Positions 313 through 27,269 of a DNA stretch of 30,294 nucleotides are shown here, in pieces. Within the stretch, counting starts at the first letter, position 1, and every line of letters starts with the position of its first letter. The notes beneath the pieces were generated by a model, which was not told the origin of the DNA, ran no database searches, and saw nothing but the letters and a program-made list of their open reading frames with translations. The translations under genes and the position numbers were made by a program. The stretch comes from a virus. The stretch is taken from IMG/VR virus record IMGVR_UViG_3300003410_000002, positions 1 to 30,294 of that record. One strand, given 5' to 3'.

Positions 313-459
313 ATGTATCGAACGTATTACGAAATGATGACTAACGCGGAACTCTTAGAGGACGCAACTAACGAGAGCCTTTTAGATTACTATAGAAAGG
401 AATGTAAAGCGGTTTTATTATCTAGACTAGAATCTGAAAAAGAAATTATAGAGCTATGA
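313..459 (+). CDS. Small acidic helical protein, unknown function
   Basis: A 48-residue protein starting MYRTYYEMMTNAELLED and ending EIIEL. It looks fully helical, is rich in Glu and Leu, and has no recognised domain. Its start follows an A/T-rich leader (aaacaaataatt) typical of Bacteroidetes starts. Its TGA stop overlaps the ATG of the exonuclease gene (ATGA at 456-459), so it is probably the first gene of that operon and translationally coupled to it. Function unknown. Confidence 0.6.
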   Translation: MYRTYYEMMTNAELLEDATNESLLDYYRKECKAVLLSRLESEKEIIEL

Positions 460-1217
460 TAACCTTACTAAATAACGAGTCATACGGTAGAGACGAGATC
501 CTAGCTATGATGTACGACGACGAATTTTACTACGGCCACTTAGGTAAAAACGCTTTAAGTAGTAGCTCTTTAAAAACTTTACTTAAATCTCCTAAGACTT
601 ATAGGAACGTAATTAAATACGGTTCGGGGGATAGTCCCGCTCTTAGATTAGGTAAGTTACTTCATTGGATGGTATTAGAGCCGCATAAGATAGATAAGCT
701 TAATATAGTAGAAGCTAGTTCTAAGAATACTAAAATATATAAAGAGGCTTACGAAAAGGATAACGAAGTATTTCTAAGAAAAGAAATAAGCGATAGCGAA
801 AGATTATCGGACGCTTTACTAAGAAACGAAGAAGTATTAAGATTATTAAGTAAATCTGAGTTCGAAGTTCCCGAGATAGCGATGATAGACGGATTACCCT
901 TTAGAGCTAAAGCCGATATACTAAAGGACGATATGATAGTAGATATCAAGTCTACGGCCGATTTATCTACCTTTCGTTTTTCCGCTAATAAATACGGATA
1001 TGATTTACAAGCTTATCTTTATCTTAAGATATTCGGAAAGAAGAAATGTAAGTTTATAGTAGTAGATAAAGCTTCTACGGACGTAGGTATATTCGAGACT
1101 AGCGATGAGTTTATAAAATCGGGAAAGGCTAAATTTATACAAGCCGTATCGATATATAAATACTTCTTTAGAGAAGATAACGATATAGACCAATACGTTT
1201 TAAGAGGAATATTATGA
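456..1217 (+). CDS. RecE-like (exonuclease VIII) PD-(D/E)xK exonuclease
   Basis: A 253-residue protein of the phage exonuclease VIII / PDDEXK type, expected to resect double-stranded DNA for recombination or replication. Visible marks are the N-terminal S-S-S-S-L-K and A-L-R-L-G-K-L-L-H blocks (residues 36-70). The nuclease core follows: Asp154 in KADIL, Asp163-Ile-Lys165 in VDIKST, and Gln185 in DLQAYLY. This D...DxK...QxxxY order is usual for the family. Such exonucleases normally partner a single-strand annealing protein; none is evident next to it, though an SSB is coded at 26945. It overlaps both neighbours by 4 bases. The nuclease fold is clear; the exact role is inferred. Confidence 0.85.
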   Translation: MITLLNNESYGRDEILAMMYDDEFYYGHLGKNALSSSSLKTLLKSPKTYRNVIKYGSGDSPALRLGKLLHWMVLEPHKIDKLNIVEASSKNTKIYKEAYEKDNEVFLRKEISDSERLSDALLRNEEVLRLLSKSEFEVPEIAMIDGLPFRAKADILKDDMIVDIKSTADLSTFRFSANKYGYDLQAYLYLKIFGKKKCKFIVVDKASTDVGIFETSDEFIKSGKAKFIQAVSIYKYFFREDNDIDQYVLRGIL

Positions 1218-1867
1218 GTAAGTTTAGCTTCGATACCGTTAAGGATTTCGATAAGCATATAGATAAAAGTATACCTTCCTACTCTACTCTTTTAAATATA
1301 ATAGAAAATATATCTTCTTATTTTATAAGAGATTATTATAACGTATACGATCTAGGATGCTCTACGGGAACTCTTATTAAAAGACTTTACGCTAAAGATA
1401 AAACGAAGGCTAATTTTATAGGCTACGATATATCTAATAATCTTTTACCCGAGATAGAGGACGATAGAATATACTTTTATAATAGAGATATTACTAAGGA
1501 CGTTAATCTAAATAGAGCTTCTTTAATATTTTCTATATTTACTTTACAGTTTATAGATTATTATAAAAGAGAGAGAATACTTAAAAACGTATACGACTCT
1601 TTAATTAAAGGAGGAGCTTTTATAGTTACGGAAAAGATATTTTTAGAGGACGCGAGACTACAGGATATTTTTACTTTTTCTTTATACGATTATAAGATAA
1701 ATTCTTTTACGGCTTTAGAGATATTAGATAAGCAGAGAGACTTACGGAAGATTATGTTTCCTATTAGCGAGAAAGAAAACTTAGAATTATTTAGAAAAGT
1801 AGGATTTAAAACTATAGAACCTTTTTTTCAATCTCTAAATTTTAAAGGATGGATTCTTTTAAAGTAG
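1214..1867 (+). CDS. cmoA: CmoA-like carboxy-S-adenosyl-L-methionine (Cx-SAM) synthase
   Basis: A 217-residue class I SAM-fold protein that follows E. coli CmoA along nearly its whole length. Shared blocks are the N-terminal S-I-P-S-Y (CmoA SVPGY), VYDLGCS at residues 44-50, FTLQF at 109-113, GGA...TEK at 133-141, the LEI helix near 168-170, and a final FFQSLNF (CmoA WFQCFNF). CmoA converts SAM and prephenate to Cx-SAM; its only established use is by CmoB in tRNA wobble-uridine modification. No CmoB is present. Instead the gene overlaps the DNA cytosine transferase by 19 bases, so Cx-SAM supply to that enzyme is the likely role. One oddity: the Cx-SAM-binding Arg199 of E. coli CmoA aligns with Gln174, with Arg175 next to it. 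A plain methyltransferase remains the alternative. Confidence 0.85.
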   Translation: MSKFSFDTVKDFDKHIDKSIPSYSTLLNIIENISSYFIRDYYNVYDLGCSTGTLIKRLYAKDKTKANFIGYDISNNLLPEIEDDRIYFYNRDITKDVNLNRASLIFSIFTLQFIDYYKRERILKNVYDSLIKGGAFIVTEKIFLEDARLQDIFTFSLYDYKINSFTALEILDKQRDLRKIMFPISEKENLELFRKVGFKTIEPFFQSLNFKGWILLK

Positions 1868-2949
1868 AATATAAGCCTTTACTACTAGAGGAGGTAATAG
1901 CCGAATCTAATAAAAAACTATTTAACGTAGTATCTACTTTCGCGGGAGGAGGAGGTTCTTCTTTAGGCTATAGATTAGCGGGAGGTAATATATTAGCTAT
2001 TAACGAGTTCGTAGAAAGTGCTAGAGATACCTATAGATCTAACTGGCGAGAGACTAAGATATATCCTAGCGATATAAGAGAACTAAAAGGAAGTACTATC
2101 TTAAACGATCTAAACTTAAAAGAAGGAGAGTTAGATATATTAGATGGCTCCCCGCCTTGCGCCTCCTTTTCCCTTTCGGGTAATAGAGAAAAAGATTGGG
2201 GTAAAGAAAAGAAGTATAGCGATAAGACGCAAACGACCGACGATTTATTCTTCGAATACGCTAGACTAATAGACGAAATAAAACCTAAGACTTTTATAGC
2301 GGAAAACGTTAAAGGGCTACTTATAGGAAGTGCTAAGAATTTTTTCGGGAGTTCGCAGTTAGGCTTATTCGGAGGACATAGCGATACGATATACCATACC
2401 CTTACTAACCTAGGTTATAAAGTATATTATAAAGTTTTAAACGCTAAGAATTACGGAGTACCTCAGTCTAGGGAAAGATTAATTATAGTAGGAGTAAGAA
2501 ACGATATAGATATACCTTTTAAGTATCCTAAGGCTAACGATTATATATTTTCTTTACGAGAAGCTTTCGAGGGTTTAGAACATAGTAAAGAGGAATTAGA
2601 GGAGGTTAATATAGATAGGTTCGCTATATATAAAGAGGCTATTAAATTAGAAGAGGGGGGTCAGAGCGAAAAGTATTTTAACCTAATAAAGTCTAATAGT
2701 AAAAAGCCTTCGGGAACGCTAACGCAGACGGCGGGATCGGTAGGAGCAGCTTCGATAATACATTGGGATAATAGAAAGTTTACCGTAAAAGAAGCTAAAA
2801 GGATTATGTCTTTTCCCGACGATTATATCTTAAAGGGAACTTATAGAGAAAAAGTAGAAAGACTAGGGAGAGCCGTACCTCCTTTATTAATGAGCGCGGT
2901 AGCGAAACAAGTATATAATTTAATTTTAAAGAAATGGGAAAACAATTAA
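1849..2949 (+). CDS. C5-cytosine DNA transferase with Arg in motif X; candidate DNA carboxymethyltransferase
   Basis: A 366-residue C5-cytosine DNA transferase with motifs in order: I, FAGGGGSSLG (31-40); IV, GSPPCASFS with catalytic Cys104; VI, ENV (152-154); VIII, QSRER (206-210); IX, near FTVKEAKRIMSFPDDY (311-326). Between VIII and IX is a short target-recognition region of about 100 residues. Motif X normally reads G-N-[SA]-V; here it is L-G340-R341-A-V-P-P. From recall, the engineered Asn374-to-Lys form of M.MpeI, which I place at this position, accepts Cx-SAM and makes 5-carboxymethylcytosine. A natural Arg here, with a CmoA homologue directly upstream, strongly suggests transfer of a carboxymethyl group. 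The target site is unknown. Ordinary methylation is the alternative. The ATG lies inside the upstream gene. Confidence 0.9.
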   Translation: MDSFKVEYKPLLLEEVIAESNKKLFNVVSTFAGGGGSSLGYRLAGGNILAINEFVESARDTYRSNWRETKIYPSDIRELKGSTILNDLNLKEGELDILDGSPPCASFSLSGNREKDWGKEKKYSDKTQTTDDLFFEYARLIDEIKPKTFIAENVKGLLIGSAKNFFGSSQLGLFGGHSDTIYHTLTNLGYKVYYKVLNAKNYGVPQSRERLIIVGVRNDIDIPFKYPKANDYIFSLREAFEGLEHSKEELEEVNIDRFAIYKEAIKLEEGGQSEKYFNLIKSNSKKPSGTLTQTAGSVGAASIIHWDNRKFTVKEAKRIMSFPDDYILKGTYREKVERLGRAVPPLLMSAVAKQVYNLILKKWENN

Positions 2950-3470
2950 ATATCTACGGAAACGTAGAAGAAGGAAGTCTCTTAAGAGATAATATAGATA
3001 AAATAATATCTATACTAGAAAAGTATAAAATAGATAGCGTAGATAAACTAGAGAATATATTTAAAGGTCAAGAGGGAGAGAGAACCGTTAAAAAATATCT
3101 TAATAACGAGATAGGAAACTACGGAATGCAGATAGACGACTTTAGAATAAATAGAGAGGGAGGGTATCAGTTAAGCGAAATTAAAAGTCAATATAAGGTA
3201 AATAAAGGAGATTATTACTCCCCTATAGAGGGTCATGGGTTACACCCTGCGCAAGTAGAGGCTAGGGTAAGACTTTCCGAAAAGTACGGCTGGACCCCTA
3301 TGTTATATATAAACTGTCTAACCGATAAAGTTATATATTACGGAGATCTTAGAGAATTACTAAAAACGGAGACGCATACTTTTTCTAAGGGAGACTTTAG
3401 AAAAGAAAGAATACTTTTTAATATAAAATACTTTAATAAATCAGTACTTGGATCGGAATATTATAAATGA
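2934..3470 (+). CDS. PD-(D/E)xK nuclease, VRR-NUC / resolvase-like
   Basis: A 178-residue protein starting at ATG 2934, overlapping the DNA transferase gene by 16 bases. It has a restricted nuclease-like core: acidic residues near 47-50 (QEGER), Asp68-Asp69, then Glu82-Ile-Lys84 in YQLSEIKSQ, and a helix with Gln107 in HPAQVEARVRLSEKYGW followed by a strand TPMLYI. This E-x-K...P-x-Q layout resembles VRR-NUC and Holliday-junction-resolvase-like members of the superfamily. Tight coupling to the modification genes suggests it may act on unmodified host DNA or on replication intermediates, but this is inference. It could also be a structure-specific nuclease unrelated to modification. Confidence 0.6.
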   Translation: MGKQLNIYGNVEEGSLLRDNIDKIISILEKYKIDSVDKLENIFKGQEGERTVKKYLNNEIGNYGMQIDDFRINREGGYQLSEIKSQYKVNKGDYYSPIEGHGLHPAQVEARVRLSEKYGWTPMLYINCLTDKVIYYGDLRELLKTETHTFSKGDFRKERILFNIKYFNKSVLGSEYYK

Positions 3471-3684
3471 ATTTTATTTACTAGCTTTACAGGATCTTTC
3501 GGAGGGAGCTTCTATAGAAGAGTTAGAAAAAACTATAAACTACTACGAGGCTTTAGAAGATTACGAGGCCTGCGAAGGTATTCTTAGAGCTATAAAAGAA
3601 GTAAAAAAAAGTACTATTAACGCTATAAAAGATAAAATTAATGAAATTAGAAGAGATAATAAAGATAGTAGAAGAAGAGACTAA
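3448..3684 (+). CDS. Small charged helical protein, unknown function
   Basis: A 78-residue protein with an acidic first half (ASIEELEKTINYYEALEDYEACEGIL) and a very basic tail (RRDNKDSRRRD). No in-frame ATG precedes the conserved-looking part, so the start given is TTG 3448, 23 bases inside the previous gene; another non-ATG start cannot be excluded. It overlaps the next gene by 44 bases. The long overlaps at both ends and the helical sequence suggest a real, translationally coupled gene. No domain recognised and no function offered. Confidence 0.5.
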   Translation: MDRNIINEFYLLALQDLSEGASIEELEKTINYYEALEDYEACEGILRAIKEVKKSTINAIKDKINEIRRDNKDSRRRD

Positions 3685-4054
3685 ATATAATTTAGTAAAT
3701 AGAAATAGAAAAAGAGAGATAGTTTACTCTAGAGCCATATACTATAAACTAGCTAGAGTACATACTAGGGAATCCTTAAACTCTATAGCTAAGAAAGTAA
3801 AAAGAGACCACGCTACGGCTTTACACGGTATAAAAGTATTCGACGAACAGATAAGCGTTTATAAAGACGCTATAGAATATCTTAAAGTATACGATAAACT
3901 AGATAATATTATTAAAAGATCTACGAATACTAGAGAGAGAGATATAAACCCTGGGCCGTATTATCGTAATAAATTCGCGAACGCTTTACTAGAACTAAGA
4001 GAAGAAAGAAAAGCTAATAGGTTATTAAAAGAACAATTAAGAATTAACAGTTAA
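3641..4054 (+). CDS. DnaA domain IV-like DNA-binding protein
   Basis: A 137-residue protein whose residues 22-70 match the DNA-binding domain IV of bacterial DnaA. It has the pattern R-K-R-E-I-V-Y-S-R-A-I-Y-Y-K, then S-L-N-S-I-A-K-K-V-K, then the signature RDHATALH at 55-62, which in DnaA contacts the DnaA box. The AAA+ domain of DnaA is missing. The remainder is a charged, helical tail ending ELREERKANRLLKEQL, possibly a coiled coil. Proteins of this shape occur in Bacteroidetes phages near terminase genes. It may bind the phage origin or a control site, or titrate host DnaA boxes. DNA binding is well supported; the biological role is inferred. Confidence 0.75.
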   Translation: MKLEEIIKIVEEETKYNLVNRNRKREIVYSRAIYYKLARVHTRESLNSIAKKVKRDHATALHGIKVFDEQISVYKDAIEYLKVYDKLDNIIKRSTNTRERDINPGPYYRNKFANALLELREERKANRLLKEQLRINS

Positions 4055-4099
4055 ACCTTTTTTTTATTATATAATTAATAATAATCTTTTTTAATTCTA

Positions 4100-4339
4100 A
4101 TGGACGGAAGAAAAAATAACGGAGGGCATAAAACGGCGGGACGTAAATCTAAGTCAGAAGAGGTAGCTTTAGTAGAAAAGTTAACGCCCTTAGAACCTAT
4201 CGCATTCGAAGCTTTAGAAGAAGGATTAAAGAATAAAGATTTTAAATTCGTGCAGTTATTTTATAACTACTACGCGGGTAAACCTAGAGAGACTAAGGAT
4301 ATAAATATATCCGAGGACTTACCTCTATTTATGGATTAA
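4100..4339 (+). CDS. terS: Terminase small subunit-like protein
   Basis: A short (79-residue) protein beginning MDGRKNNGGHKTAGRKSKSEE, with KLTPLEPIAFEALEEGLKNKDFKFVQLFYNYYAGKPRE after it and ending NISEDLPLFMD. The N-terminal GG-H-K-x-A-G-R-K basic region, the middle helical L-x-x-L-x-x-I-A-x-x-A-L-x-x-G segment and the KPRETKD tail follow the small terminase or terminase-associated proteins of Bacteroidetes phages. It sits 32 bases before the large terminase gene. It should bind the packaging start and load the motor. Length is at the low end for TerS, so some caution is due. Confidence 0.7.
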   Translation: MDGRKNNGGHKTAGRKSKSEEVALVEKLTPLEPIAFEALEEGLKNKDFKFVQLFYNYYAGKPRETKDINISEDLPLFMD

Positions 4340-4371
4340 GAGATAACCTAAGCTCTTATCTGTAATTTTAT

Positions 4372-5541
4372 ATGCGGATAAAGAAAACCCCAGCTTTTTA
4401 TAAATTAAAAGAACTAACCGAAAGAACTCGAGTAGTTAAAGGTGGTACCTCTGCGGGAAAAACTATCTGTATTCTAGCTATACTAATTAACGACGCGATT
4501 ACTAACTCGGGAAAAGAAATAAGCGTAGTAGCGGAGTCTATACCAGCCGTAAGACGTGGTGCCTTAAAAGACTTCTTAAATATACTTAAAGGCCTTAATA
4601 GATATAAGGAAAACCAGTTTAATCGTAGTACCCTTAAATATACTTTTACTAATGGAAGCTATATCGAATTTTTTAGTACCGATCAGCCCGATAAATTGCG
4701 AGGTTCTCGAAGAACTGATCTCTTTATTAATGAGTGCAATAATATTTCTTTTTCTAGTTACGGTGAATTATCTATACGAACGTCTGGGACTATCTGGCTA
4801 GATTATAACCCTTCCCATATATTCTGGGTAGATAAAGAAATAATAGGAGAGCCAGACGTAGATTATATAACCCTTACTTATAAAGATAACGACGCTTTAG
4901 CTCCTTCTATAGTAAAAGAAATAGAAAAGGCTAGAGAAAAGTCTAAGACTTCTACTTACTGGGCTAACTGGTGGCGAGTCTATGGTCTCGGAGAGCAGGG
5001 AACTCTTTCGGGTGCGTGTATTCCCGATTGGAAAGAAATAGATAGTATTCCCGAAGAAGCTAGACTTATAGGATATGGCATGGACTTCGGCTATTCGGTA
5101 GATCCGAGTACATTAATCGCTTTATATAAATGGAACGAAGCCTATATATTCGATGAGGTTCTCTATAAGAAAGGAATGCTAAATAGAGATATAAGTAGAT
5201 TCCTAAAGGATAATAATATTAAAGAAAATATTACGGCTGATTCCGCAGAGCCTAAGAGTATCGCAGAATTGGTAAGTTACGGCCATAACGTCTTTCCTGT
5301 TTCTAAAGGAAGAGATAGCGTAGTATATGGTATAAACCTAATAAACCAAAACGAGATATATATAACTTCTAGAAGTAAGAACTTAAAGCGAGAGTTAGAA
5401 GGCTACGTTTGGGCTAAAGATAAAGACGGTAATACGTTACAGAAGCCTAGCGGAGCGCATCCTGACTGTATAGATGCGGCTAGATATATTCTAACCGATA
5501 CTCTAGAGAACCCGAATAAGGGTGAATATTTTATTTACTAA
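4372..5541 (+). CDS. terL: Terminase large subunit
   Basis: A 389-residue DNA-packaging motor of usual length. The ATPase half has Walker A GGTSAGKT (24-31), Walker B DLFINE (116-121) and the coupling segment IWLDYNP (141-147). The C-terminal RNase H-like nuclease has Asp238 in GYGMDFGYSVD, Asp290 in ITADSAEPKSI, and Asp365/Asp368 in HPDCIDAARY. Together these are the full set expected for an active enzyme that cuts and translocates DNA into the prohead. It follows the small terminase gene directly and is followed by a promoter-like region instead of by portal, which is coded far away at 19199. Confidence 0.95.
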   Translation: MRIKKTPAFYKLKELTERTRVVKGGTSAGKTICILAILINDAITNSGKEISVVAESIPAVRRGALKDFLNILKGLNRYKENQFNRSTLKYTFTNGSYIEFFSTDQPDKLRGSRRTDLFINECNNISFSSYGELSIRTSGTIWLDYNPSHIFWVDKEIIGEPDVDYITLTYKDNDALAPSIVKEIEKAREKSKTSTYWANWWRVYGLGEQGTLSGACIPDWKEIDSIPEEARLIGYGMDFGYSVDPSTLIALYKWNEAYIFDEVLYKKGMLNRDISRFLKDNNIKENITADSAEPKSIAELVSYGHNVFPVSKGRDSVVYGINLINQNEIYITSRSKNLKRELEGYVWAKDKDGNTLQKPSGAHPDCIDAARYILTDTLENPNKGEYFIY

Positions 5542-5593
5542 TTTTTTTAGTTAATAAAAAGTTTATATATTTGAACTATTAAAACAATTTATT
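5542..5593 (+). promoter_or_regulatory. Probable promoter P2 (Bacteroidetes-type)
   Basis: GTTAATAAAAAGTTTA (5550-5565) is directly followed by TATATTTG (5566-5573), an exact match to the Bacteroidetes -7 consensus TAnnTTTG. The start ATG of the next gene lies 21 bases beyond. The upstream part matches 15 of 16 bases at 264-279, so the two are probably read by the same sigma factor. Which sigma factor, host or phage, is not known. Confidence 0.65.
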
Positions 5594-5794
5594 ATGAGAA
5601 ACTATAAAGAGATTAATACCGATAATTGGAGAAACGACTTTAGTACCGAGTACTATTTAATTAAAAAAGCTACTTCTAGGGAGCATAGAAAAAATAGCTT
5701 AAAGATAATAGGCTATGCGGCCTTATTTATAGCCCTTAGCTTTTTATCTATGTACGCTACTCTAGACTTAGCACTTTGGATATACTATGCGTAA
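5594..5794 (+). CDS. Small single-pass membrane protein, unknown function
   Basis: A 66-residue protein with a polar, charged N-terminal half (MRNYKEINTDNWRNDF...SREHRKNSLK) and one hydrophobic segment at about residues 38-64 (IIGYAALFIALSFLSMYATL). It is predicted to cross the inner membrane once, N-terminus inside. It is the first gene after promoter P2 and overlaps the next gene by 8 bases. No family recognised. A role at the host membrane early in infection is possible but there is no direct evidence. Confidence 0.6.
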   Translation: MRNYKEINTDNWRNDFSTEYYLIKKATSREHRKNSLKIIGYAALFIALSFLSMYATLDLALWIYYA

Positions 5795-6020
5795 CCCTAG
5801 TATGCCTTGGTGTTTAGATAACGATATAAAGATATATCCTATCGTATGGAAAGAGGCTAGTCCCGAGAATCCTCCTAGATTAGCTATACAAGTAGATTAT
5901 AAGGGTTTTAAAAGAACGGGAGATATTATTTGGAGTCAAAAGAATAAAAAAGAGAATTTAGATATGTATAAAAGAATAGAAGATCTTTACGATTATTATT
6001 ATAAAAGAGATAAAGAATAG
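5787..6020 (+). CDS. Small conserved-looking protein, unknown function
   Basis: A 77-residue soluble protein starting MRNPSMPWCLDNDIKIYP. It contains a mixed segment WKEASPENPPRLAIQVDYKGFKRTGD followed by a helical, Tyr/Lys-rich end (YKRIEDLYDYYYKRDKE). The proline- and tryptophan-containing first half suggests a small folded domain, but I do not recognise it. It is translated with the membrane protein before it (8-base overlap) and is followed by a terminator, so the two form a small operon between terminase and tail genes. Confidence 0.6.
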   Translation: MRNPSMPWCLDNDIKIYPIVWKEASPENPPRLAIQVDYKGFKRTGDIIWSQKNKKENLDMYKRIEDLYDYYYKRDKE

Positions 6021-6052
6021 TTTTTTTTTTGATTTAGTTAGTTAATTAGTTA

Positions 6053-6084
6053 GGAGTCGTAGAAATACGGCTCTTTTCTTTTTA
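6053..6084 (+). terminator. Rho-independent terminator after the P2 operon
   Basis: GAGTCGT (6054-6060) pairs with ACGGCTC (6067-6073), with one G-T pair, around a 6-base AGAAAT loop, and is followed by a T-rich run (TTTTCTTTTTAT). It separates the terminase/P2 block from the tail genes. Confidence 0.8.
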
Positions 6085-6115
6085 TACATATTTAAGAATA
6101 AGTTATTATTAATAT

Positions 6116-6778
6116 ATGAAGCTAGAAATAAACGTACCCGAGAATCTTAACGAGATTACTTTAGAGCAATACCAGAGATTCGATAAGATAAATACGGAAG
6201 AAAACCAAGATTCTAATTTCTTACTACATAAGACTGTAGAGATATTTTGCGGCCTAGAATTAAAAGATATAGCTACGATTAGAGTTAATAGTATAAAAGA
6301 AATACTAGGAGATATAGATAAAGTATTCTCCGAGAAAACCGACTTAGTACCTACGTTTACTTTAGACGGTATAGAATACGGATTTATCCCTAACCTCGAC
6401 GATATGACTATAGGAGAGTTTATAGATCTAGACGAAAACCTAACGGAGTGGGAGACTATACATAAAGCGATGAGCGTACTCTATAGACCGATTAATTATA
6501 AAAAAGAAGATAAGTATCTTATAGAAGATTATACGGGCTTAGATAAAGCCGAGCTATTTAAGAAGATGCCTCTAGGTATAGTAATGGGAGCGATGGTTTT
6601 TTTTTACCGTTTAAACAACGAGTTACTAGAAATTACCCTGAGTTATTTGAAGAGGGAAGCTCCGAACCAAATGAATACGGAATCATTAGCAGCTTTGGAA
6701 AGAAGTGGGGTTGGTTCCAGTCGATTTATGGACTCGCTAAGGGTGATGCTACCCGTTTCGATGACGCAACGAAATTAA
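6116..6778 (+). CDS. Tail assembly chaperone, zero-frame product
   Basis: The zero-frame protein has 220 residues. Its body (MKLEINVPENLNEITLEQYQRFDKI... to the FFYRLNNELLE region near 162-173) resembles the short tail assembly chaperones coded just before the tape measure group in Bacteroidetes siphophages. These keep the tape measure soluble during tail assembly. The last 40 or so zero-frame residues (ending SRFMDSLRVMLPVSMTQRN) look unlike the family. A much better C-terminus lies in the -1 frame (see 6616-6864), so the full protein is probably made by frameshift. The zero-frame product alone may also be functional, as in gpG/gpGT systems. Confidence 0.7.
   Translation: MKLEINVPENLNEITLEQYQRFDKINTEENQDSNFLLHKTVEIFCGLELKDIATIRVNSIKEILGDIDKVFSEKTDLVPTFTLDGIEYGFIPNLDDMTIGEFIDLDENLTEWETIHKAMSVLYRPINYKKEDKYLIEDYTGLDKAELFKKMPLGIVMGAMVFFYRLNNELLEITLSYLKREAPNQMNTESLAALERSGVGSSRFMDSLRVMLPVSMTQRN
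6597..6616 (+). promoter_or_regulatory. Candidate -1 ribosomal frameshift site
   Basis: T-TTA-AAC (6610-6616) is a canonical X-XXY-YYZ slippery heptamer in the exact zero-frame phase: TTA is codon 166 (6611-6613). Just upstream, a run of nine T (6597-6605) gives a second possible in-phase slip, T-TTT-TTT. Either shift leads into the open -1 frame that ends at 6864. I did not identify a firm downstream stimulatory structure. Confidence 0.6.
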
Positions 6779-6864
6779 ATATGCATCAGGCTTTACTATT
6801 CTTAGCCTTCGAGAAAGAAAAGATAGAATTAGAAAAGAAACAGTTAGAAAAATTTAAGAAATGA
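6616..6864 (+). CDS. Tail assembly chaperone, -1 frame C-terminal extension
   Basis: In the -1 frame relative to the 6116 gene, reading is open to TGA 6862-6864. It codes for about 82 residues including SFGKKWGWFQSIYGLAKGD and a helical, charged end (ALLFLAFEKEKIELEKKQLEKFKK). The F-G-K-K-W-G-W-[FY]-x-S-[IL]-Y-x-L-A motif is a typical C-terminus of tail chaperone proteins. There is no obvious independent start that would include it all, and it ends with an ATGA overlap with the next gene. A slip at 6610-6616 would yield a fusion of about 249 residues. A genuine inactivating frameshift or sequencing error is the alternative. Confidence 0.65.
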   Translation, partial: QRVTRNYPELFEEGSSEPNEYGIISSFGKKWGWFQSIYGLAKGDATRFDDATKLNMHQALLFLAFEKEKIELEKKQLEKFKK

Positions 6865-7316
6865 AAGCCTTTTACGAATTAACAGATAAAATAAAAGATA
6901 CCCTAATAGCCGAGCCTTTCGTTAATACGGTTACTTTCGGTAGCTTAGACGACGTAGATCTTAATAAGTCTACTATCTTTCCTTTATCTCATATTATAGT
7001 AAATACGGCTACGGTAAACTCTAATTTTATAACGTTTAATATTAGCGTTCTTTCTATGGACGTAGTAGACGAAAGTAAAAAAGAAACTACGGACGATTTT
7101 ATAGGTAACGATAACGAGCAAGACGTACTTAATACGCAGTTAGCGGTACAGAATAGATTAATAGCTTTATTACAGAGAGGTACTTTATATCAAGAAAAAT
7201 ATCAAGTAGAAGGAAGCGTTACTTGCGAACCTTTCGTAGATAGATTCGAGAATAAATTAGCAGGCTGGGCCTCTACCTTAGATATAGTAATACAAAACGA
7301 TATGACGGTATGCTAA
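6861..7316 (+). CDS. Tail completion / tail terminator-like protein
   Basis: A 151-residue protein whose plan (N-terminal helix MKAFYELTDKIKDTL, then a region of alternating strands with HIIVNTATVNSNFITFNISVLSMDVVDES, then a helix LNTQLAVQNRLIALLQRG and terminal strands) matches the tail-terminator or completion proteins coded at this place in Bacteroidetes siphophages. The FNISVLSMDVVDE segment before a linker of acidic residues is characteristic. It overlaps the chaperone extension by 4 bases and the next gene by 7. It probably closes the tail tube at the neck. Assignment rests on position and pattern, not on a catalytic motif. Confidence 0.6.
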   Translation: MKAFYELTDKIKDTLIAEPFVNTVTFGSLDDVDLNKSTIFPLSHIIVNTATVNSNFITFNISVLSMDVVDESKKETTDDFIGNDNEQDVLNTQLAVQNRLIALLQRGTLYQEKYQVEGSVTCEPFVDRFENKLAGWASTLDIVIQNDMTVC

Positions 7317-9348: not shown

Positions 9349-9349
9349 G

Positions 9350-14884: not shown

Positions 14885-14913
14885 CAAAACCTCTTAAAAT
14901 TTATTATAATAAT

Positions 14914-15852
14914 ATGGATATAGTAGAACTTTTTATAGACGAAGAAGATGAGATTTCGGGAATCGAGGCAGTATCTATAGTAGAAAACCCAGCGATTGAA
15001 GAGGACTTTATAGCATTAAAGAACCACGAGGTTAAATTTGCGGAAGTGAACAAAGAGAAGCGTATTCTAATGGGTGCTGCTCTTATTCCTAATAAACCGA
15101 TATATAGAAGAAGCGAAGAAAACGAATATTATATTTACTTCTCTAGAGATACGGTAAGAAAAGCTAGTGAACTATTTTTTATAAAAGGTAACTATAATAA
15201 ATCTACTTTAGAACACGGAAAAGCTTTAAGCGGTTTAGTAGCCGTAGAGTCTTGGTTAGTCGAAGATTCTAAAAAAGATAAAAGCGCAGCTTACGGTATG
15301 GATATGCCCGTCGGTACCTGGATGCTCTCTATGAAAGTACTAAACGACGACGTTTGGGAAAATTACGTTAAAACGGGTAAGGTAAAAGGATTTAGTATAG
15401 AGGGATATTTCGCGGATCGTTTAGAAAGACCTAACGAACCTAATAAATTAAGCGATTGGGAAGAAGAAGAAGCGGAATACTTATTAAGCGAGATAAAAGG
15501 TATAATTAAAAAGGATAAAAGATTTAAAGACGGTAAGACTATAGAAATGGAATCCTATAGAGACTACCCCGATAGTGTAAAAAATAACGCTAAAAGAGGT
15601 ATAGAGCTAAACGAGAAAGTAAATAATAAATGCGCTACTCCCGTAGGTAAGATTAGAGCGCAACAGTTAGCTCAAGGTAAACCTATAAGCGTAGAGACTA
15701 TAAAAAGAATGTATAGTTATCTATCTAGAGCGGAAGAGTATTACGATCCTTCGGATAACGAAGCTTGTGGTACTATAAGCTATTTACTTTGGGGAGGTAA
15801 GACCGCTAAGTCTTGGGCCGAATCTAAACTTAAATCTCTAGACTTAATTTAA
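14914..15852 (+). CDS. XkdF-like prohead protease with extra C-terminal domain
   Basis: A 312-residue two-part protein. Residues 1-170 resemble XkdF-type phage putative serine proteases: the start MDIVELFIDEEDEISGIEAVSIVENPAI, His101 in STLEHGK, and VKGFSIEGYF with Ser161 at the end of the fold. Residues about 214-310 form a second domain (DYPDSVKNNAKRGIELNEKVN, CATPVGKIRAQQLAQG, ETIKRMYSYLSRAEEYY, CGTISYLLWGGK) often found appended to Bacteroidetes phage head proteins. The protease should mature the head before packaging. Catalytic residues are suggested by pattern only. It follows the tape measure gene and precedes scaffold and capsid genes. Confidence 0.75.
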   Translation: MDIVELFIDEEDEISGIEAVSIVENPAIEEDFIALKNHEVKFAEVNKEKRILMGAALIPNKPIYRRSEENEYYIYFSRDTVRKASELFFIKGNYNKSTLEHGKALSGLVAVESWLVEDSKKDKSAAYGMDMPVGTWMLSMKVLNDDVWENYVKTGKVKGFSIEGYFADRLERPNEPNKLSDWEEEEAEYLLSEIKGIIKKDKRFKDGKTIEMESYRDYPDSVKNNAKRGIELNEKVNNKCATPVGKIRAQQLAQGKPISVETIKRMYSYLSRAEEYYDPSDNEACGTISYLLWGGKTAKSWAESKLKSLDLI

Positions 15853-16055
15853 TGAGAGATTATAACGAAAAAGCTCCGAGTCCTAAAAACGATAGAAGAG
15901 GATGTCTCTGTAAAGACGGTACTTATTCTAGAAAATGCTGCGACGGTTCTTTTCAAGCACAAGGTATCGGGAATATAACTAGATACCGTTTTTTTCTTTA
16001 TACGGAAGAAGGAGAAAAATTTATTCAAGAAAACGAGAGTAAACTATATCAATAA
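15852..16055 (+). CDS. Small cysteine-rich structural-like protein
   Basis: A 67-residue protein sharing single-base overlaps with both neighbours. The central motif RRGCLCKDGTYSRKCCDGSFQAQGIG carries four Cys (two CxC/CC groups); small proteins with this C-x-C-x-D-G-T-Y-S-x-x-C-C-D-G-S core recur in Bacteroidetes phage head regions. It ends in a helix rich in Glu. A role in the virion or as a head-assembly cofactor is likely from position, but no function is established. Confidence 0.6.
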   Translation: MRDYNEKAPSPKNDRRGCLCKDGTYSRKCCDGSFQAQGIGNITRYRFFLYTEEGEKFIQENESKLYQ

Positions 16056-16510
16056 TGGCAGATAAAAAAATAAGCGAACTTACGGACGCTACTACCTTAA
16101 CAGGTACGGAGATAGTCCCTTTAGTACAAAGTAGCTCGACTAAAAAAGCTACTATAAACGATATTACTAATCATATTATTACGGTATCTAAAACGGTTAC
16201 GGCAGGAGAAACGGTAGACTTAGGAGACTCTGCCTATACTAACGCTATGATGGTTAAGCTTACTTGGAGCGGAGCAACGGGAACGGCTACTTATACGTTA
16301 CCAGACGCTACTTCTTCTAACTCTACTAATAGGGTTTTAAGATTTATTACCAATAGTACATTCTCCGCTAGCACTAGAGTAGACTTAACCCCAGCTAGTG
16401 GGCAAAACCTAGACGGTAGTACCTCGGCCTACGAAATCAATAAAGATTACGAAGGTATAGCGGTTTGGTCAGACGGTAGCGAGTGGTTTATTATACAAAA
16501 GAAAGCGTAA
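16055..16510 (+). CDS. Head decoration or minor virion protein
   Basis: A 151-residue protein starting MADKKISELTDATTLTGTEIVPLVQ, an N-terminal pattern common to many phage fibre, spike and decoration proteins. The rest is a beta-rich domain with Thr/Ser/Gly (YTLPDATSSNSTNRVLRF, VDLTPASGQNLDG) and a final WFIIQKKA strand. It stands between the protease and scaffold genes, which favours a capsid-decorating or minor structural role over a tail fibre. Sharing the ELTDA start with fibres makes the exact place uncertain. Confidence 0.55.
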   Translation: MADKKISELTDATTLTGTEIVPLVQSSSTKKATINDITNHIITVSKTVTAGETVDLGDSAYTNAMMVKLTWSGATGTATYTLPDATSSNSTNRVLRFITNSTFSASTRVDLTPASGQNLDGSTSAYEINKDYEGIAVWSDGSEWFIIQKKA

Positions 16511-16547
16511 AAATCTAACAAAGTATTTATTAATTTATTATAACTAT

Positions 16548-17156
16548 ATGAAAGCAACCGAAGTACTTAAAAAAGCAAAAGAGCTTCTTTCTATCGAAAC
16601 GGAAGAAGTTAAACTAGCGACGGCTACTTTAGAAAACGGGACTATTATCGAAGCAGAGTCTTTCGCTGCGGGAGAAGAAGTCTTTATCGTCACTCAGGAC
16701 GAAAAAGTAGCATTACCCGTAGGGGATTATACTCTAGAGGACGGAAACGTTTTAATGGTCAAAGAAGAAGGAATTATCGATTCTATTGGCGAAGCTGTAG
16801 AGGAAGAAGAGCCTAGCGAGGAAAGTCTTAACGAGGAAACAGAACTCGAAGAAGATAAAGAAGAAATGGGATACGCTACTAAAGAAGAACTTGCAGAAGT
16901 TAAGTCTATGATCGAAGAGATTAAGGCTATGATCGAAAGTAAGGAAGAAATGAGCGAAGAAGTTTCTGAAGAGCCTAAGGAAGAACTTAGCGAAGAAATT
17001 AAAGAGGAAGAAATTAAAGAAGAGCTTTCCGAAATTCCTAAGGTTAAACATAACCCCGAGAAAGAAGAAGATCGTAATTTAAATCTATTTGCTCAAAAAA
17101 GAGTATCGACTACTTACGATAGAGTATTAAGTAAAATATCAAAAATTAATAATTAA
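16548..17156 (+). CDS. Capsid scaffold protein
   Basis: A 202-residue, strongly acidic protein coded directly before the major capsid gene. The first 85 residues form a small beta domain (VKLATATLENGTIIEAESFAAGEEVF...). Residues 85-170 are a Glu-rich helical or coiled region with repeated EEL/SEE segments. The end is basic (KVKHNPEKEEDRNLNLFAQKR), as expected for a scaffold tail that touches capsid protein. Proteins of this shape shape the prohead and are then removed. Its start follows a TTTATTATA-N5-ATG leader. Assignment rests on position and composition. Confidence 0.75.
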   Translation: MKATEVLKKAKELLSIETEEVKLATATLENGTIIEAESFAAGEEVFIVTQDEKVALPVGDYTLEDGNVLMVKEEGIIDSIGEAVEEEEPSEESLNEETELEEDKEEMGYATKEELAEVKSMIEEIKAMIESKEEMSEEVSEEPKEELSEEIKEEEIKEELSEIPKVKHNPEKEEDRNLNLFAQKRVSTTYDRVLSKISKINN

Positions 17157-17161
17157 ATAAA

Positions 17162-18115
17162 ATGGCAACAACAACTTCAATTACGAGTACATACGCGGGT
17201 GAGTCAGCTGGTCAATATATTAGCGCAGCTTTACTTAGCGGATCTACTATCGAAAATGGCGGGATTACGGTCAAGCCTAACGTTAAATTTAAAGAGGTAA
17301 TTAAGAAGGTATCTACTAACGATATCGTAAAAGACGCTTCATGCGACTTCGACGCGACTTCTACTATTACCCTTACCGAAAGAGTTCTTCAACCAGAATT
17401 TCAGCAGGTCAACCTACAGTTATGTAAGAAAGACTTTATCTCTGATTGGGAAGCGATTCAGATGGGATATTCGGCGCATCACGACTTACCTCCTTCTTTT
17501 AGCGATTTCTTAATTTCTCACGTAGCTGCTAAAGTAGCGCAGAGAACAGAAAACTCTATTTGGGCGGGAGATACTTCTACTAACGGACAGTTTAACGGTT
17601 TAACTACTCAAATCGCTTTAGACGCAGATTTACCTTCTGGTCAAGAAGTAGCGGGTGCTACCGTAACTGCTTCTAACGTAATTACAGAGCTTGGTAAAAT
17701 CGTAGACGCTGTTCCTTCGGCTCTTTACGGTGCGGAAGATCTTAACGTATATGTTTCGCAGAATATCGCGAGAGCATATGTACGTGCTTTAGGTGGATTC
17801 GGTAGCTCGGGCTTAGGCGCAGCGGGTACTAACGCAATGGGTACTCAATGGTGGAATAACGGATCTCTTACTTTCGACGGAGTAAAAATCTTCGTAGCAA
17901 ACGGATTAGCGGATAATACAGCTATCGCCGCAGAGAAAAGCAACCTATTCTTCGGGACTGGTTTATTAGCAGATCATAACGAGGTGAAGGTTTTAGATAT
18001 GAGCGATCTAGACGGTTCGGATAACGTTCGCGTAGTAATGCGATTTACGGCTGGAGTTCAGTACGGGATAGTAGAAGATATCGTAACATACGGTATTACT
18101 AACTCTGCTAACTAA
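17162..18115 (+). CDS. Major capsid protein
   Basis: A 317-residue protein of usual length for an HK97-fold capsid subunit, coded right after the scaffold and followed by a strong terminator. Recognisable segments are the N-terminal MATTTSITSTYAGESAGQYI, IDIV-like strand NDIVKDASCDFDAT, the helix FSDFLISHVAAKVAQRTENSIWAGD near 117-140, and the C-terminal VRVVMRFTAGVQYGIVEDIVTYG strand. These occur in Bacteroidetes phage major capsid proteins. Codon choice is less strictly TG-avoiding in a few places but still typical. High expression is likely from its A/T-rich leader and position between terminators. Confidence 0.85.
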   Translation: MATTTSITSTYAGESAGQYISAALLSGSTIENGGITVKPNVKFKEVIKKVSTNDIVKDASCDFDATSTITLTERVLQPEFQQVNLQLCKKDFISDWEAIQMGYSAHHDLPPSFSDFLISHVAAKVAQRTENSIWAGDTSTNGQFNGLTTQIALDADLPSGQEVAGATVTASNVITELGKIVDAVPSALYGAEDLNVYVSQNIARAYVRALGGFGSSGLGAAGTNAMGTQWWNNGSLTFDGVKIFVANGLADNTAIAAEKSNLFFGTGLLADHNEVKVLDMSDLDGSDNVRVVMRFTAGVQYGIVEDIVTYGITNSAN

Positions 18116-18138
18116 GAATTAGAATAGTTTAACTTAAA

Positions 18139-18176
18139 GGGGTAGGTAAGCCACGGAGCCTGCCTACCCTTTTTTA
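18139..18176 (+). terminator. Terminator after the major capsid gene
   Basis: GGGTAGG (18140-18146) pairs exactly with CCTACCC (18163-18169), followed by six T. The loop is long (16 bases) but contains smaller pairing. It should limit read-through from the capsid gene into the tail tube gene. Confidence 0.85.
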
Positions 18177-18189
18177 ATATAGAAAAGAT

Positions 18190-18768
18190 ATGGCATGCGA
18201 GTTAACAAGAGGGCGTAAGGAACCATGTAAGGACGTAGTCGGTGGTCTAAAAAATATTTACTTCGTAGACTTTGGAGATCTAGGAACGGTAACTAAAACA
18301 GACGACGAAATTACTAACCTTACGGGAGATAGTTCTAACGACCTTACGGCTTTTAAATATGAATTAAAAGGTAATAGTAGCTTTGAGCAAACGGTAACGG
18401 CTTCGAGAGAAAACGGTACGGTATTCTACGAGCAGATTTTAAACCTTACTCTTAAAAAACTTTCTAAGGAAGATAATAAAGAGTTAAAATTACTGGCTTA
18501 CGGGAGACCTCACGTAGCGGTGGAAGATTATAACGGTAACGTTTTTATGATGGGTCTAGAACACGGAGCGGACGTTTCTGGAGGTACGATAGTAAGCGGG
18601 GCATCGATGGGTGACCTTAGCGGATATACTCTTACGTTAACGGCTCAAGAAAGAGAACCAGCTAACTTTATGGCTTCGGCTACGGTAGACGCTGACTATC
18701 CGTTCTCTGTAACTGATTTCGCAGGATTAGTCGGATCGATTACGATTACGGAAGGTACGAACTCTTAA
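18190..18768 (+). CDS. Major tail tube protein
   Basis: A 192-residue protein starting MACELTRGRKEPCKDVVGGLKNIYFVDFGDLG. This C-E-L-T-[RK]-G-R-x-x-P-C-K-D-x-x-G-G-[IL]-K-N-[IV]-Y-F start is the pattern I associate with major tail tube proteins of Bacteroidetes siphophages. The remainder is beta-rich (FEQTVTASRENGTVFYEQILNLTLKKL, TLTLTAQEREPANFM), as expected for a ring-forming tube. It is flanked by terminators on both sides, which suggests its own high expression. It lies in the head gene cluster, unlike in lambda-type phages. Confidence 0.75.
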   Translation: MACELTRGRKEPCKDVVGGLKNIYFVDFGDLGTVTKTDDEITNLTGDSSNDLTAFKYELKGNSSFEQTVTASRENGTVFYEQILNLTLKKLSKEDNKELKLLAYGRPHVAVEDYNGNVFMMGLEHGADVSGGTIVSGASMGDLSGYTLTLTAQEREPANFMASATVDADYPFSVTDFAGLVGSITITEGTNS

Positions 18769-18792
18769 ACCGAGTTTTTATTTGATTTAAAA

Positions 18793-18821
18793 GGGGGTAG
18801 CTATATAGTTACCCTTTTTTT
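18793..18821 (+). terminator. Terminator after the tail tube gene
   Basis: GGGTAGCTA (18795-18803) pairs with TAGTTACCC (18806-18814), with one G-T pair, and is followed by seven T (18815-18821). This is a strong intrinsic terminator. Confidence 0.9.
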
Positions 18822-18857
18822 ATTATAACAAATTAGACTTTTTTTTATTATATAAGT

Positions 18858-19199
18858 ATGATAATATTAGAAGAGTCAGCGAGTAGTCAAACGTTTAGTT
18901 TTATTCCTAGATCCTATACGTCGGGAATAACTTATACTATTAAGATAACTAACGAGACGACTAATAAAGAAGTATACGCTTCTACGGCAACTTCTTTTAC
19001 GGAAGTAGATTATTACTACGAGCATAGTGATATATTTACTCTAAAAGAAGATACTTACTATACTATAGAGATTACCGCTAGTAGCGAAGTAGTATTTAGA
19101 GATAAAATATTCTGTACTAACCAAACAGTAAGTACTTATTCTATAAATAATAACGCTTATATAGTAAATAGCGACGATAACGAATTTATATTAATATAA
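18858..19199 (+). CDS. Small beta-rich virion protein, unknown function
   Basis: A 113-residue protein with a strand-rich sequence (FSFIPRSYTSGITYTIKITNETTNKEV, YYTIEITASSEVVFRDKIFCTNQ) and an end YSINNNAYIVNSDDNEFILI. The R-x-K-I-F-C-T-N-Q and N-E-F-I-[IL]-I blocks recur in a small protein family coded beside portal genes in Bacteroidetes phages. Its last base is the first base of the portal ATG. It is probably a virion component at the head-tail region; no function is established. Confidence 0.55.
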   Translation: MIILEESASSQTFSFIPRSYTSGITYTIKITNETTNKEVYASTATSFTEVDYYYEHSDIFTLKEDTYYTIEITASSEVVFRDKIFCTNQTVSTYSINNNAYIVNSDDNEFILI

Positions 19200-20947
19200 T
19201 GGATAACTTACATATAGTAAACCTTTCTTCTTATAATAGGCCTAAGGTTCAAGAAGATAAAAAAAAGGACTGGGTCGCTTACGGCTCGGATAATAACTAT
19301 TATCAATACCTAATAGACCTTTATACTAATAGTACTACTAATAACGCTATTATAAACGGAGTAAGTAATTTAATTTACGGTAAAGGCTTAGACGCTTTAG
19401 ATAGTTCTACTAAGACGGACGAATACGCTGCCCTTAGATCGATCTTTAAGAACGAATGCCTTAAGAAGGTAGCCTTAGACTTAAAACTCTTAGGAGAGGC
19501 TTCTTTTCAAGTATTATATAAGGACGGAAGGGTTTATAAAGCGGAGCATTTTCCGAGACAGACCTTAAGATCCGAAAAGTATAATAAAGACGGAGATATA
19601 GAAGCTTATTACTATTCTCCTAACTGGTCTAAAGTAAAAAATACAGATAAACCCGAAAGAATAGCAGCTTTTGGTATGGGTAACGGAATAGAGCCAGAGA
19701 TTAAAATAATTAAAAAATACGTTTCGGGTTACGATTATTACTGCCCCGTCGATTACGCGGGATCACTAGCCTACGCCGAGCTTGAGAGCGAAGTAGCGGA
19801 TTACCTGATTAACGATGTACAAAACGGGTTTTCGGGCACTAAAGTCGTAAACTTTAACGCAGGGATTCCAGATAGAGAGAAGCAGCTACAGATTAAAAAC
19901 GACGTAATGCATAAGCTTACGGGTTCTAGAGGAGAAAAAGTAATTATAGCTTTTAATAATAGCGCAGAGCAAAAGACTACTATAGACGATATACCTTTAG
20001 ATAACGCTCCCGCACATTACGAATATTTAGCTAACGAATGCTCTACTAAACTAATGGTAGGTCATAGAGTTACTTCTCCTTTACTTTTAGGGATTAGAGA
20101 CGGTAATAACGGACTAGGTAATAACGCAGACGAAATAAGAACGGCTTCTTTATTATTTCAGAACGTTACGATTAGACCTTACCAAGATTTAATTATAGAT
20201 TCTATAGAGCAGATTCTAGCGATTAATGGGATTAGTCTAAAATTATATTTTAAAACGCTTCAGCCTTTAGAGTTTATCGAAACAGATAACGCTATTACGG
20301 ACGAAGCTAGAGAAGAAGAAACGGGAGTAAAGCTTAGTAAAGAAGAGCCAACGGACGAAGAGTTATTAGAGAGCCTAGAAGGATTAGGCGAAACGGAGGA
20401 GGAGCTATTAGAGCAGGGCTGGGAACTTTTCGACGAAAGAGCGGTAGATTACGAGCAGGAAGAGGCCTTAGATAAAATGCTAAGCTTAGCTTCCGTAGTA
20501 CCTAGTAGAGCAACGGCTAAAAGTGGATTAGACGGAGAGACGGAAACAGGTAAAAGATACTTAGTAAGATATCAGTACGCTCCTTTAATCGTTAGCGGTA
20601 ACTCTAGAGAGTTCTGCCGTAAAATGGTAAGAGCTAAAAGAGTCTATAGAAAAGAGGACTTAGATAAAAATAGTACCGCGAATAGCGAACTAGCTGCTAA
20701 AGGAGAATCTAGCTATAATATATTTTTACATAAAGGCGGGGCTAACTGTAAGCATTACTTCTTAAGAAAGACTTATATATTTAAAGACGGCGTAAAACCC
20801 GATCCTAATAGTCCTAAGGCAGATAGAGCTTATAAGAGTAAAAGAGAAAAAGAAGGAATTAAAGACCCCACCTCTGCGGAAGAACCTAACCTAGTTTCTA
20901 CGCGACCTATAGATACACCTAATAAAGGATATAAAAACCCTAGATAA
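19199..20947 (+). CDS. Portal protein with extra C-terminal domain
   Basis: A 582-residue protein. Residues 1 to about 370 follow phage portals: WVAYGSDNNYYQYLIDLYTNSTTNNAIINGVSNLIYGKGL near the start, then a core with GEASFQVLYKDGRV, DYLINDVQNGFSGTKVVNF and IRDGNNGLGNNADEIRTASLLF. This ring is the DNA gate at the capsid vertex. After an acidic linker (about 380-440) comes an extra domain (452-530: YLVRYQYAP, REFCRKMVRAKRVYRKEDL, GGANCKHYFLRKTY). A domain of this sort is also found after portal or Mu F-like proteins in related phages and has no known role. Portal is coded after capsid and tail tube, an unusual place. Confidence 0.8.
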   Translation: MDNLHIVNLSSYNRPKVQEDKKKDWVAYGSDNNYYQYLIDLYTNSTTNNAIINGVSNLIYGKGLDALDSSTKTDEYAALRSIFKNECLKKVALDLKLLGEASFQVLYKDGRVYKAEHFPRQTLRSEKYNKDGDIEAYYYSPNWSKVKNTDKPERIAAFGMGNGIEPEIKIIKKYVSGYDYYCPVDYAGSLAYAELESEVADYLINDVQNGFSGTKVVNFNAGIPDREKQLQIKNDVMHKLTGSRGEKVIIAFNNSAEQKTTIDDIPLDNAPAHYEYLANECSTKLMVGHRVTSPLLLGIRDGNNGLGNNADEIRTASLLFQNVTIRPYQDLIIDSIEQILAINGISLKLYFKTLQPLEFIETDNAITDEAREEETGVKLSKEEPTDEELLESLEGLGETEEELLEQGWELFDERAVDYEQEEALDKMLSLASVVPSRATAKSGLDGETETGKRYLVRYQYAPLIVSGNSREFCRKMVRAKRVYRKEDLDKNSTANSELAAKGESSYNIFLHKGGANCKHYFLRKTYIFKDGVKPDPNSPKADRAYKSKREKEGIKDPTSAEEPNLVSTRPIDTPNKGYKNPR

Positions 20948-20949
20948 TT

Positions 20950-21450
20950 ATGGCAGAGGCATTATTAATATCGAGAAAAGACGTAGTAAAGTTTACCTCT
21001 ATGAACGGTAATATAGATACGGATCATTTTATACAATACGTTAAGATTGCGCAGGATAAGCATATAGAAAACTATCTAGGAAGCGACTTAATAAATAAAA
21101 TAAAAGCGGATATAGTAGCTACTAGTTTATCGGGAGATTATCTAAGTCTAGTAAATAACGAAATAAAACCAGCGTTGTTACATTGGACTATGGTAGAATA
21201 TTTACCTTTTAGTAATTATACTATCGCTAATAAAGGGGTATTTAAGCATACGAGCGAAAACGCAGATAGCGTAAGTAAAGAGGAGATAGACTACTTAATA
21301 GAAAAAGAAAGAAATACGGCGCAGTACTATACGGATAGATTAATAGACTATCTAACCTATAACGCTCCTTCTAAGTTCCCAGAGTACTATAGTAATACTA
21401 ACGAGGATGTATATCCAGATAAGGATTTATTCGGTGGATGGGTTATTTAA
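20950..21450 (+). CDS. Head-tail connector protein
   Basis: A 166-residue, mostly helical protein starting MAEALLISRKDVVKFTSMNGNIDTDHFIQYVKIAQDKHIENYLGSDL. This I-S-R-x-D-[IV]-x-K-F-[TS]-x-[ML]-N-G-N-[IV]-D-x-D-x-[FI] start and the later ALLHWTMVEYLPF helix match a connector-like family (DUF6712-type) that follows the portal in Bacteroidetes phages. It should sit below the portal and take part in DNA retention. It begins 2 bases after the portal stop. Confidence 0.7.
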   Translation: MAEALLISRKDVVKFTSMNGNIDTDHFIQYVKIAQDKHIENYLGSDLINKIKADIVATSLSGDYLSLVNNEIKPALLHWTMVEYLPFSNYTIANKGVFKHTSENADSVSKEEIDYLIEKERNTAQYYTDRLIDYLTYNAPSKFPEYYSNTNEDVYPDKDLFGGWVI

Positions 21451-22735: not shown

Positions 22736-22737
22736 TT

Positions 22738-24668: not shown

Positions 24669-24669
24669 T

Positions 24670-25199: not shown

Positions 25200-25217
25200 T
25201 ACCGTAGGTAGTACGCT

Positions 25218-25592: not shown

Positions 25593-25594
25593 TA

Positions 25595-25798: not shown

Positions 25799-25815
25799 TT
25801 AAATAAATAAAGTAA

Positions 25816-26055: not shown

Positions 26056-26062
26056 TAAAATA

Positions 26063-26461: not shown

Positions 26462-26487
26462 ATTAATTATTTGTTTTAATGCGGAAG

Positions 26488-27265: not shown

Positions 27266-27269
27266 TTAA

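Follow-up and report, generated by a model that had tools for sequence, protein, structure and literature searches.

Genome-wide avoidance of the TpG/CpA step in a phage that carries a CmoA-CmoX-like cassette

We analysed a 30,294-nucleotide stretch of viral DNA, here called the window, in which a variable slot lies between a PD-(D/E)XK exonuclease-like gene at its upstream edge (456-1217, + strand; Pfam DUF3799, PHROG exonuclease VIII) and the gene for the terminase large subunit at its downstream edge (4372-5541, +), the latter being our query for relatives. The slot is occupied by a cassette of three + strand genes whose reading frames overlap in an operon-like manner: a gene for a CmoA-like carboxy-SAM synthase (1214-1867; TIGR00740, 4gek), a gene for a CmoX-like cytosine C5-carboxymethyltransferase (1849-2949; PF00145, PDB 8yf3, Arg in motif X), and a gene overlapping cmoX (2934-3470) that, on motif reading, may encode a PD-(D/E)XK nuclease. 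Downstream of the terminase gene lies a gene for a 77-aa protein (5787-6020, +), which is confined to the clade with extreme avoidance (the window, G007, L083, G001, G003, L085 and L087); its carriers avoid CA/TG or CpG.

CmoA and CmoX make up a published 5-carboxymethylcytosine system, in which CmoA produces carboxy-SAM and CmoX carboxymethylates cytosine; the characterised enzyme, SpCmoX, targets GC (PMC12783734). The first-pass annotation had read the corresponding genes of the window as a CmoA/transferase pair, and this reading is good, since the pair matches the published system, although its activity is putative and read from sequence. Specifically, the CmoA-like gene has TIGR00740 as its best match (120 bits, under the curated cut-off of 193), and its protein matches 4gek (E 3e-23). 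The CmoX-like protein matches PF00145 (E 6e-58), carries the SPPC catalytic motif (as GSPPCASFS), and aligns with SpCmoX (8yf3) over its full length (E 7e-72, 40% identity). Its motif X, GRAVPP, aligns with GRMVPP of 8yf3, with the Arg at the position for the Cx-SAM carboxylate (R350 of SpCmoX); this Arg recurs in every near relative whose motif X is readable. Thus, the window has the C5-MTase fold with SPPC, the Arg in motif X and the adjoining CmoA that mark a CmoX, and no CmoY-type ligase was seen beside cmoX or among the window genes profiled. In the third gene of the cassette, a D69...E82-x-K84 pattern is conserved in four sequences and the product matched no family or structure, leaving it as a possible PD-(D/E)XK nuclease. 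We rejected this gene as the reader of TG/CA, because it is absent in a second biased phage, G009, and has a 30%-identity homologue in the unbiased L137/L142.

The window is severely depleted of TpG and CpA. Our recount of positions 601-1200 (8 TG, 6 CA and 33 CG) agrees exactly with the hand counts of the first-pass annotation. Over the whole window, raw odds are 0.375 for TG, 0.357 for CA, 1.51 for CG and 1.35 for TA, and symmetrised rho* values are 0.36 for CA/TG, 1.47 for CG, 1.32 for TA and 1.33 for AG/CT. By comparison, CA/TG rho* averages 1.09 (sd 0.12) in 226 random viral contigs, a sample slightly tilted because its second sampling 14-mer has TA twice; the two contigs below 0.5 in this set (L455/L472) are one other lineage. 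We compared the window with codon-shuffled controls, which keep the same proteins and the same codon pool, and the signal survived: we observed 564 CA compared to 1076 in the controls (z -36), 626 TG compared to 1405 (z -44), 1356 CG compared to 904 (z +30), and 3877 TA compared to 3173 (z +38). Thus, strong depletion through synonymous choice, as first claimed, is upheld. So is the claim that the rule crosses codon borders, since at the 3|1 codon junction observed/expected ratios are 0.07 for CA, 0.25 for TG, 1.93 for CG and 1.58 for TA. In two-fold NNY codons of the window, the probability of C is 0.019 if the next base is A and 0.85 if it is G, while in relatives it is ~0.25 before A and before G alike. 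We conclude that the TG/CA bias is real and genome-wide.

The bias had been assigned to positions 456-21450, where it is indeed present, but this range stops too early: the bias is as strong at ~24.4-30.2 kb, the exception being ~21.8-24.2 kb. Strong avoidance, assigned to neither strand, spans 1-21770 (per-gene rho CA 0.13-0.60) and a second region at 24250-30294 (CA 0.17-0.52 and TG 0.35-0.60 in 1-kb windows; helicase gene rho 0.41). Between them, the + strand tail-region genes at 21776-24228 show weak or no bias (rho CA 0.69 for 21776-22735, 0.71 for 22735-23208 and 0.89 for 23209-24228; CG down to 0.63). These genes are probably recent imports, and, as near-normal genes inside a purged genome, they could be used to date the selection. 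Major capsid genes are also less biased (0.60 in the window, 0.87 in G014 and 0.58 in G009), which may reflect competing codon constraints.

To define what is avoided, we fitted a conditional-logit model to synonymous codon choice. A single CA/TG term gains 1902 log-likelihood units with a coefficient of -2.52, corresponding to ~12-fold avoidance of the TG/CA step per site, and all four CAN contexts are avoided (coefficients -2.1 to -2.9). In contrast, a CG term alone gains 261 units and adds just 5.7 once CA/TG and two further terms are in the model. Thus, the CpG excess claimed in the first-pass annotation is real (CG 1.47), but it is not half of the signal (5.7 compared to 1902): like the excess of TA and AG/CT, it is a by-product of TG/CA avoidance. 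The CA/TG term alone explains the pattern. The earlier suggestion that the genome evades a TG/CA-reading system stands as a form of explanation; we identified no enzyme known to read TG/CA as a 2-bp target.

Several observations indicate that selection acts on the DNA. At four-fold sites, the third base is A, C, G or T with frequencies of.44,.18,.25 and.13 before G, compared to roughly.24,.14,.11 and.52 before C/T, such that T before G gives way to each of the other three bases, at roughly proportionate rates. The T of TG is avoided and so is the C of CA, such that both base pairs are affected, by transitions as well as transversions. Intergenic DNA is also depleted, with 32 CA and 28 TG among 1847 dinucleotides (~0.4 and ~0.3 times the expected numbers), and TG and CA are equally low though the genes are almost all on the same strand. 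Furthermore, the proteome is depleted in Gln, His and Met, and Met, Trp, Cys, His and Gln together make up 6.2% of residues, compared to 8.1-8.9% in unbiased relatives. Because the loss affects both base pairs, by transitions and transversions, and extends to intergenic DNA and the proteome, it points to selection on DNA and not to the directed TG-to-CG bias that had been proposed; directed CA-to-TA mutation was likewise rejected, as it leaves the loss at both base pairs and the transversions unexplained. Our conclusion is that selection on the DNA itself disfavours the TG/CA step. As in restriction-site avoidance, the under-representation goes beyond composition and codon usage, is strand-symmetric, and affects coding and non-coding DNA. 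The window does not display the signature of 5mC deamination (CG down, TG/CA up) or a strand-asymmetric, transcript-only depletion of the ZAP or RNase type. Vertebrate-type CpG loss through 5mC deamination shows a trade-off among CG, TG and CA like that of the window, but the direction here is opposite and the routes include transversions.

Within the terminase family we made the comparison that the first-pass annotation had named as a possible refutation of the link to the modification genes, and the link is partly supported. Contigs with a cmoX at least 75% identical to that of the window have rho CA of 0.20-0.68, whereas ~100 loci without CmoA/CmoX are normal, at 0.93-1.31, which speaks for the link. 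However, a sister group (G007, L244 and L246), in whose incomplete contigs no CmoX was seen, keeps a weaker bias (rho CA 0.50-0.63), and most CmoX carriers outside the clade are unbiased, including L017, although the target-recognition region of its CmoX resembles that of the window. We therefore rejected the CmoA/CmoX pair as a sufficient cause, since most carriers are normal. In the G007 group, synonymous differences into CA/TG are still suppressed (5.5% compared to 21% in the control), and the slot of G007 and L246 holds a ParB-like gene. G007 is nested between the CmoX-bearing L007 and the window in the terminase tree, but the exonuclease tree disagrees, such that a recent loss of cmoX from the sister group is possible. 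A terminase search of genome contigs for the host found distant relatives only (at most 63% identity).

Independent lineages also avoid CA/TG; they are few, and the compared contigs are fragments. G009 and G010 have a GC content of 46% and a Mu-type capsid, and the terminase of G009 is unrelated to that of the window. Both contigs display the signature of the window, with a CA/TG coefficient of -2.62 for G009, compared to -2.52, and G009, like the window, avoids every CAN context; G009 and the window have only CmoX and CmoA in common (phmmer, E<1e-3). G009 was found via CmoX and is not an unbiased sample, and a search for G009-type CmoX in other backgrounds yielded nothing beyond the two known contigs. 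Group B (G013-15) nearly exempts CAA (-0.40, compared to -1.7 to -2.0 for other CAN), a pattern resembling that of a protein reader whose flank preference evolves. The CmoX and/or CmoA genes of the biased genomes tested exceed the remainder of their genomes in depletion, and in some, though not all, the difference is significant: TG/CA occurs at 0/66 Y|R codon junctions in the CmoA-like gene of the window compared to 216/2681 for the window, and at 11/99 junctions in the G013 CmoX compared to 821/3150. A Bacteroidetes-type lineage, L575/L576 (G033/G034), shows CA/TG of 0.39, GA/TC of 0.58 and TA of 1.7; its ~24 kb of available sequence contain no CmoX, the early genes lying outside the fragments. 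We rejected G011/L041 and L055 as further cases, because their signature differs, avoidance of C before A not being clear in them.

Other dinucleotides are avoided elsewhere. In sister clades of the window, G001 (L211+L212) has 2 CpG in 31,003 bases and G003 has rho CG of 0.13, and in clades A2/A3 CpG avoidance stays while slot genes change. The related contigs L248, L085 and L249 and the G003 group are also nearly CpG-free despite differing accessory slot genes. AG/CT is low in FPSV-S2 of Flavobacterium psychrophilum (0.43) and in PD491P1 of Parabacteroides (0.45), compared to 0/226 random contigs below 0.67. Both encode homologous C5-MTases (38574-39641 in FPSV-S2, L210; 35208-36266 in PD491P1, L589) with Met in motif X (GMSVPP), a site at which Asn or Arg is usual, and these 'GM' MTases may use a different SAM analogue. 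In both phages, the gene immediately upstream encodes a DnaQ-like exonuclease. However, 4/6 phages with a 'GM' MTase have normal AG/CT, and the two avoiders also have structural genes in common. The published F. psychrophilum phages FpV4 (L580/L583) and Fpv1 (L581) have rho CG of 0.05-0.08 and were isolated on the same strain, 950106-1/1, as FpV9, whose type is represented here by FPSV-S2 (terminase matches score equally and the MTase is identical). Since CpG and AG/CT are thus avoided on one host strain, avoidance is phage-specific, at least there. FpV4 encodes thymidylate synthase, uracil-DNA glycosylase and a 'thiamine biosynthesis' gene, the last of which might serve DNA base modification.

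These phages have also lost 4-bp palindromes: CCGG occurs once in the window compared to 69 expected, G009 has 0 CGCG (122 expected), 1 GCGC (66) and 4 GGCC (85), and in relatives CATG, GATC and GGCC are near zero (CATG and GATC are 0 in G018). Such losses are the fingerprint of restriction enzymes met by each lineage. Cytosines in CG and CC contexts, whose palindromes are purged, therefore look unprotected, and this speaks against CpG being the site of modification. Some CmoX phages are GpC-rich (L018, L021, L022, L074 and L587, the last being Mcat8; 1.37-1.67, compared to 1.13, sd 0.17, in random contigs), which would fit a GC-specific CmoX with selection for modifiable sites.

We infer that the reader of TG/CA is encoded by the phage and is most likely the CmoA-CmoX cassette, such that the phage would clear its genome of its own system's target, much as restriction sites are avoided by bacteria and viruses that encode the matching enzymes; the link of CmoX to the avoidance is circumstantial, and we give this explanation a probability of roughly 0.4. 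CmoA would supply carboxy-SAM, with which CmoX would carboxymethylate cytosine at CpA, and the overlapping candidate nuclease gene may take part. The selection on DNA against the TpG/CpA step leaves CpG, TpA and ApG/CpT as refuges. The system might be a modification/cleavage pair directed against host DNA, in which case each phage CpA would need timely protection, or CpA alkylation might harm the phage itself. Purging of the system's own target is favoured by the difference in rho CA between family members with and without cmoX, by the same signature in G009 with CmoX and CmoA alone in common, by the ability of one CA/TG term to explain the bias in both, by the CAA exemption of group B, as expected of a sequence-specific protein, by the extra depletion of the CmoX/CmoA genes, by the parallel of AG/CT avoidance with 'GM' MTases, and by the differing dinucleotides avoided on one host strain. 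Against it are the biased G007/L244/L246 and G033/G034 with no CmoX seen, the many unbiased carriers, including L017, the persistence of CpG avoidance in A2/A3 through slot-gene changes, the four normal 'GM' phages and shared structural genes of the two avoiders, and the discovery of G009 through CmoX. In addition, SpCmoX targets GC, and Synechococcus phage S-B43, whose CmoA-CmoX(-CmoY) system resembles that of the window in that the CmoA homologue overlaps a C5-MTase bearing SPPC and the Cx-SAM Arg (PMC12783734; 8yf3), lacks strong GC avoidance (0.77 in the stretch examined) and, unlike the window, has normal CA/TG (1.26); the searched text of PMC12783734 makes no mention of dinucleotide bias. 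With exceptions in both directions, we hold this explanation tentatively.

We considered that the step might instead be read by another protein. The reader of TpG/CpA might be a nuclease or some other defence of the host, and phages of such hosts would purge the step, with CmoX as an unrelated or parallel counter-defence. This would account for the bias that continues in G007/L246 and that of G033/G034, and restriction pressure on these phages is real, as many 4-bp sites are purged; but the two phage types on F. psychrophilum 950106-1/1 differ in the dinucleotide that they avoid, G009 probably has another host, since its capsid and terminase class differ, and no host enzyme is known to read this 2-bp target. 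We regard a host reader as doubtful. Somewhat less likely still is a phage factor other than CmoX, for example an unrecognised nuclease or a packaging or replication protein. The phage-specific avoidance on one strain, the candidate nuclease gene adjoining cmoX and the absence of CmoX in G007 would suit such a factor, whereas the window and G009 share no family beyond CmoX/CmoA at E<1e-3, and the candidate nuclease has the distribution that excluded it above.

Explanations that dispense with a reader fare worse. If TG/CA were hypermutable through damage, repair or polymerase bias, few differences at Y|A sites would be expected between the window and the near-identical L002, as is found (1/592 compared to 28/493 for the control), but this strain comparison cannot separate mutation from selection. 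Mutation would need to be elevated at both base pairs and toward every base, and the weaker bias of major capsid genes (0.58-0.87) and the CAA exemption of group B also speak against context-dependent mutation, which we consider improbable. A cause in mRNA or translation (codon preference, tRNA or RNase) is very improbable: most of the depletion is visible in codons, but TG and CA are equally deep despite one-strand genes, intergenic DNA is depleted and codon borders are crossed, and we rejected it for this strand symmetry and intergenic depletion. CpG is a known target of C5-MTases and is in excess here, and the first-pass annotation had offered selection for dense modifiable CpG. This idea is largely refuted and has almost nothing left in its favour, as the CG term is nearly redundant after CA/TG, TA and AG/CT rise too, and CCGG in the window and GCGC, GGCC and CGCG in G009 are purged as if unprotected.

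Readers of such short targets exist in viruses. Chloroviruses encode readers of 2-4 bp that degrade host DNA, including CviJI, Nt.CviPII (/CCD) and Nt.CviQXI (R/AG), with M.CviQII for AG (PMC7019647), and this use of 2-3 bp readers on host DNA makes avoidance of a phage's own target biochemically reasonable. The likeness drawn here is one of function: chloroviruses methylate their own DNA, while the window purges the target, and its nuclease is only a candidate, the D...ExK pattern of 2934-3470 being the one sign of a companion nuclease in the window. A broader proposal, which we consider unlikely though worth stating, is that phage DNA-alkylating systems with 2-3 bp targets (CpA for the CmoX type, CpT for the 'GM' relative) hit host DNA, with the phage's own genome purged. 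The attack would either mark host DNA for destruction or take the form of a 2-bp restriction-modification pair, and the phage would evade it by ridding its entire genome of the dinucleotide, even at the expense of protein sequence.

The dinucleotide bias of DNA phages is usually ascribed to mutation or host mimicry. Restriction-site avoidance likewise involves under-representation beyond composition, on both strands, that tracks a sequence-specific reader, but elsewhere it mostly concerns palindromes of 4-6 bp, whereas the window avoids a non-palindromic 2-bp step with an amino-acid shift. CmoX is already published; the literature searched, which covered few subscription journals, contained no earlier account of phages that avoid TG/CA throughout the genome. 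Here, one step is avoided ~12-fold per site genome-wide, while the avoided step differs among related phages, including phages of a single host strain. If the readers are phage DNA-modifying enzymes, then genome composition would reveal their target, as well as a use for them beyond self-protection.
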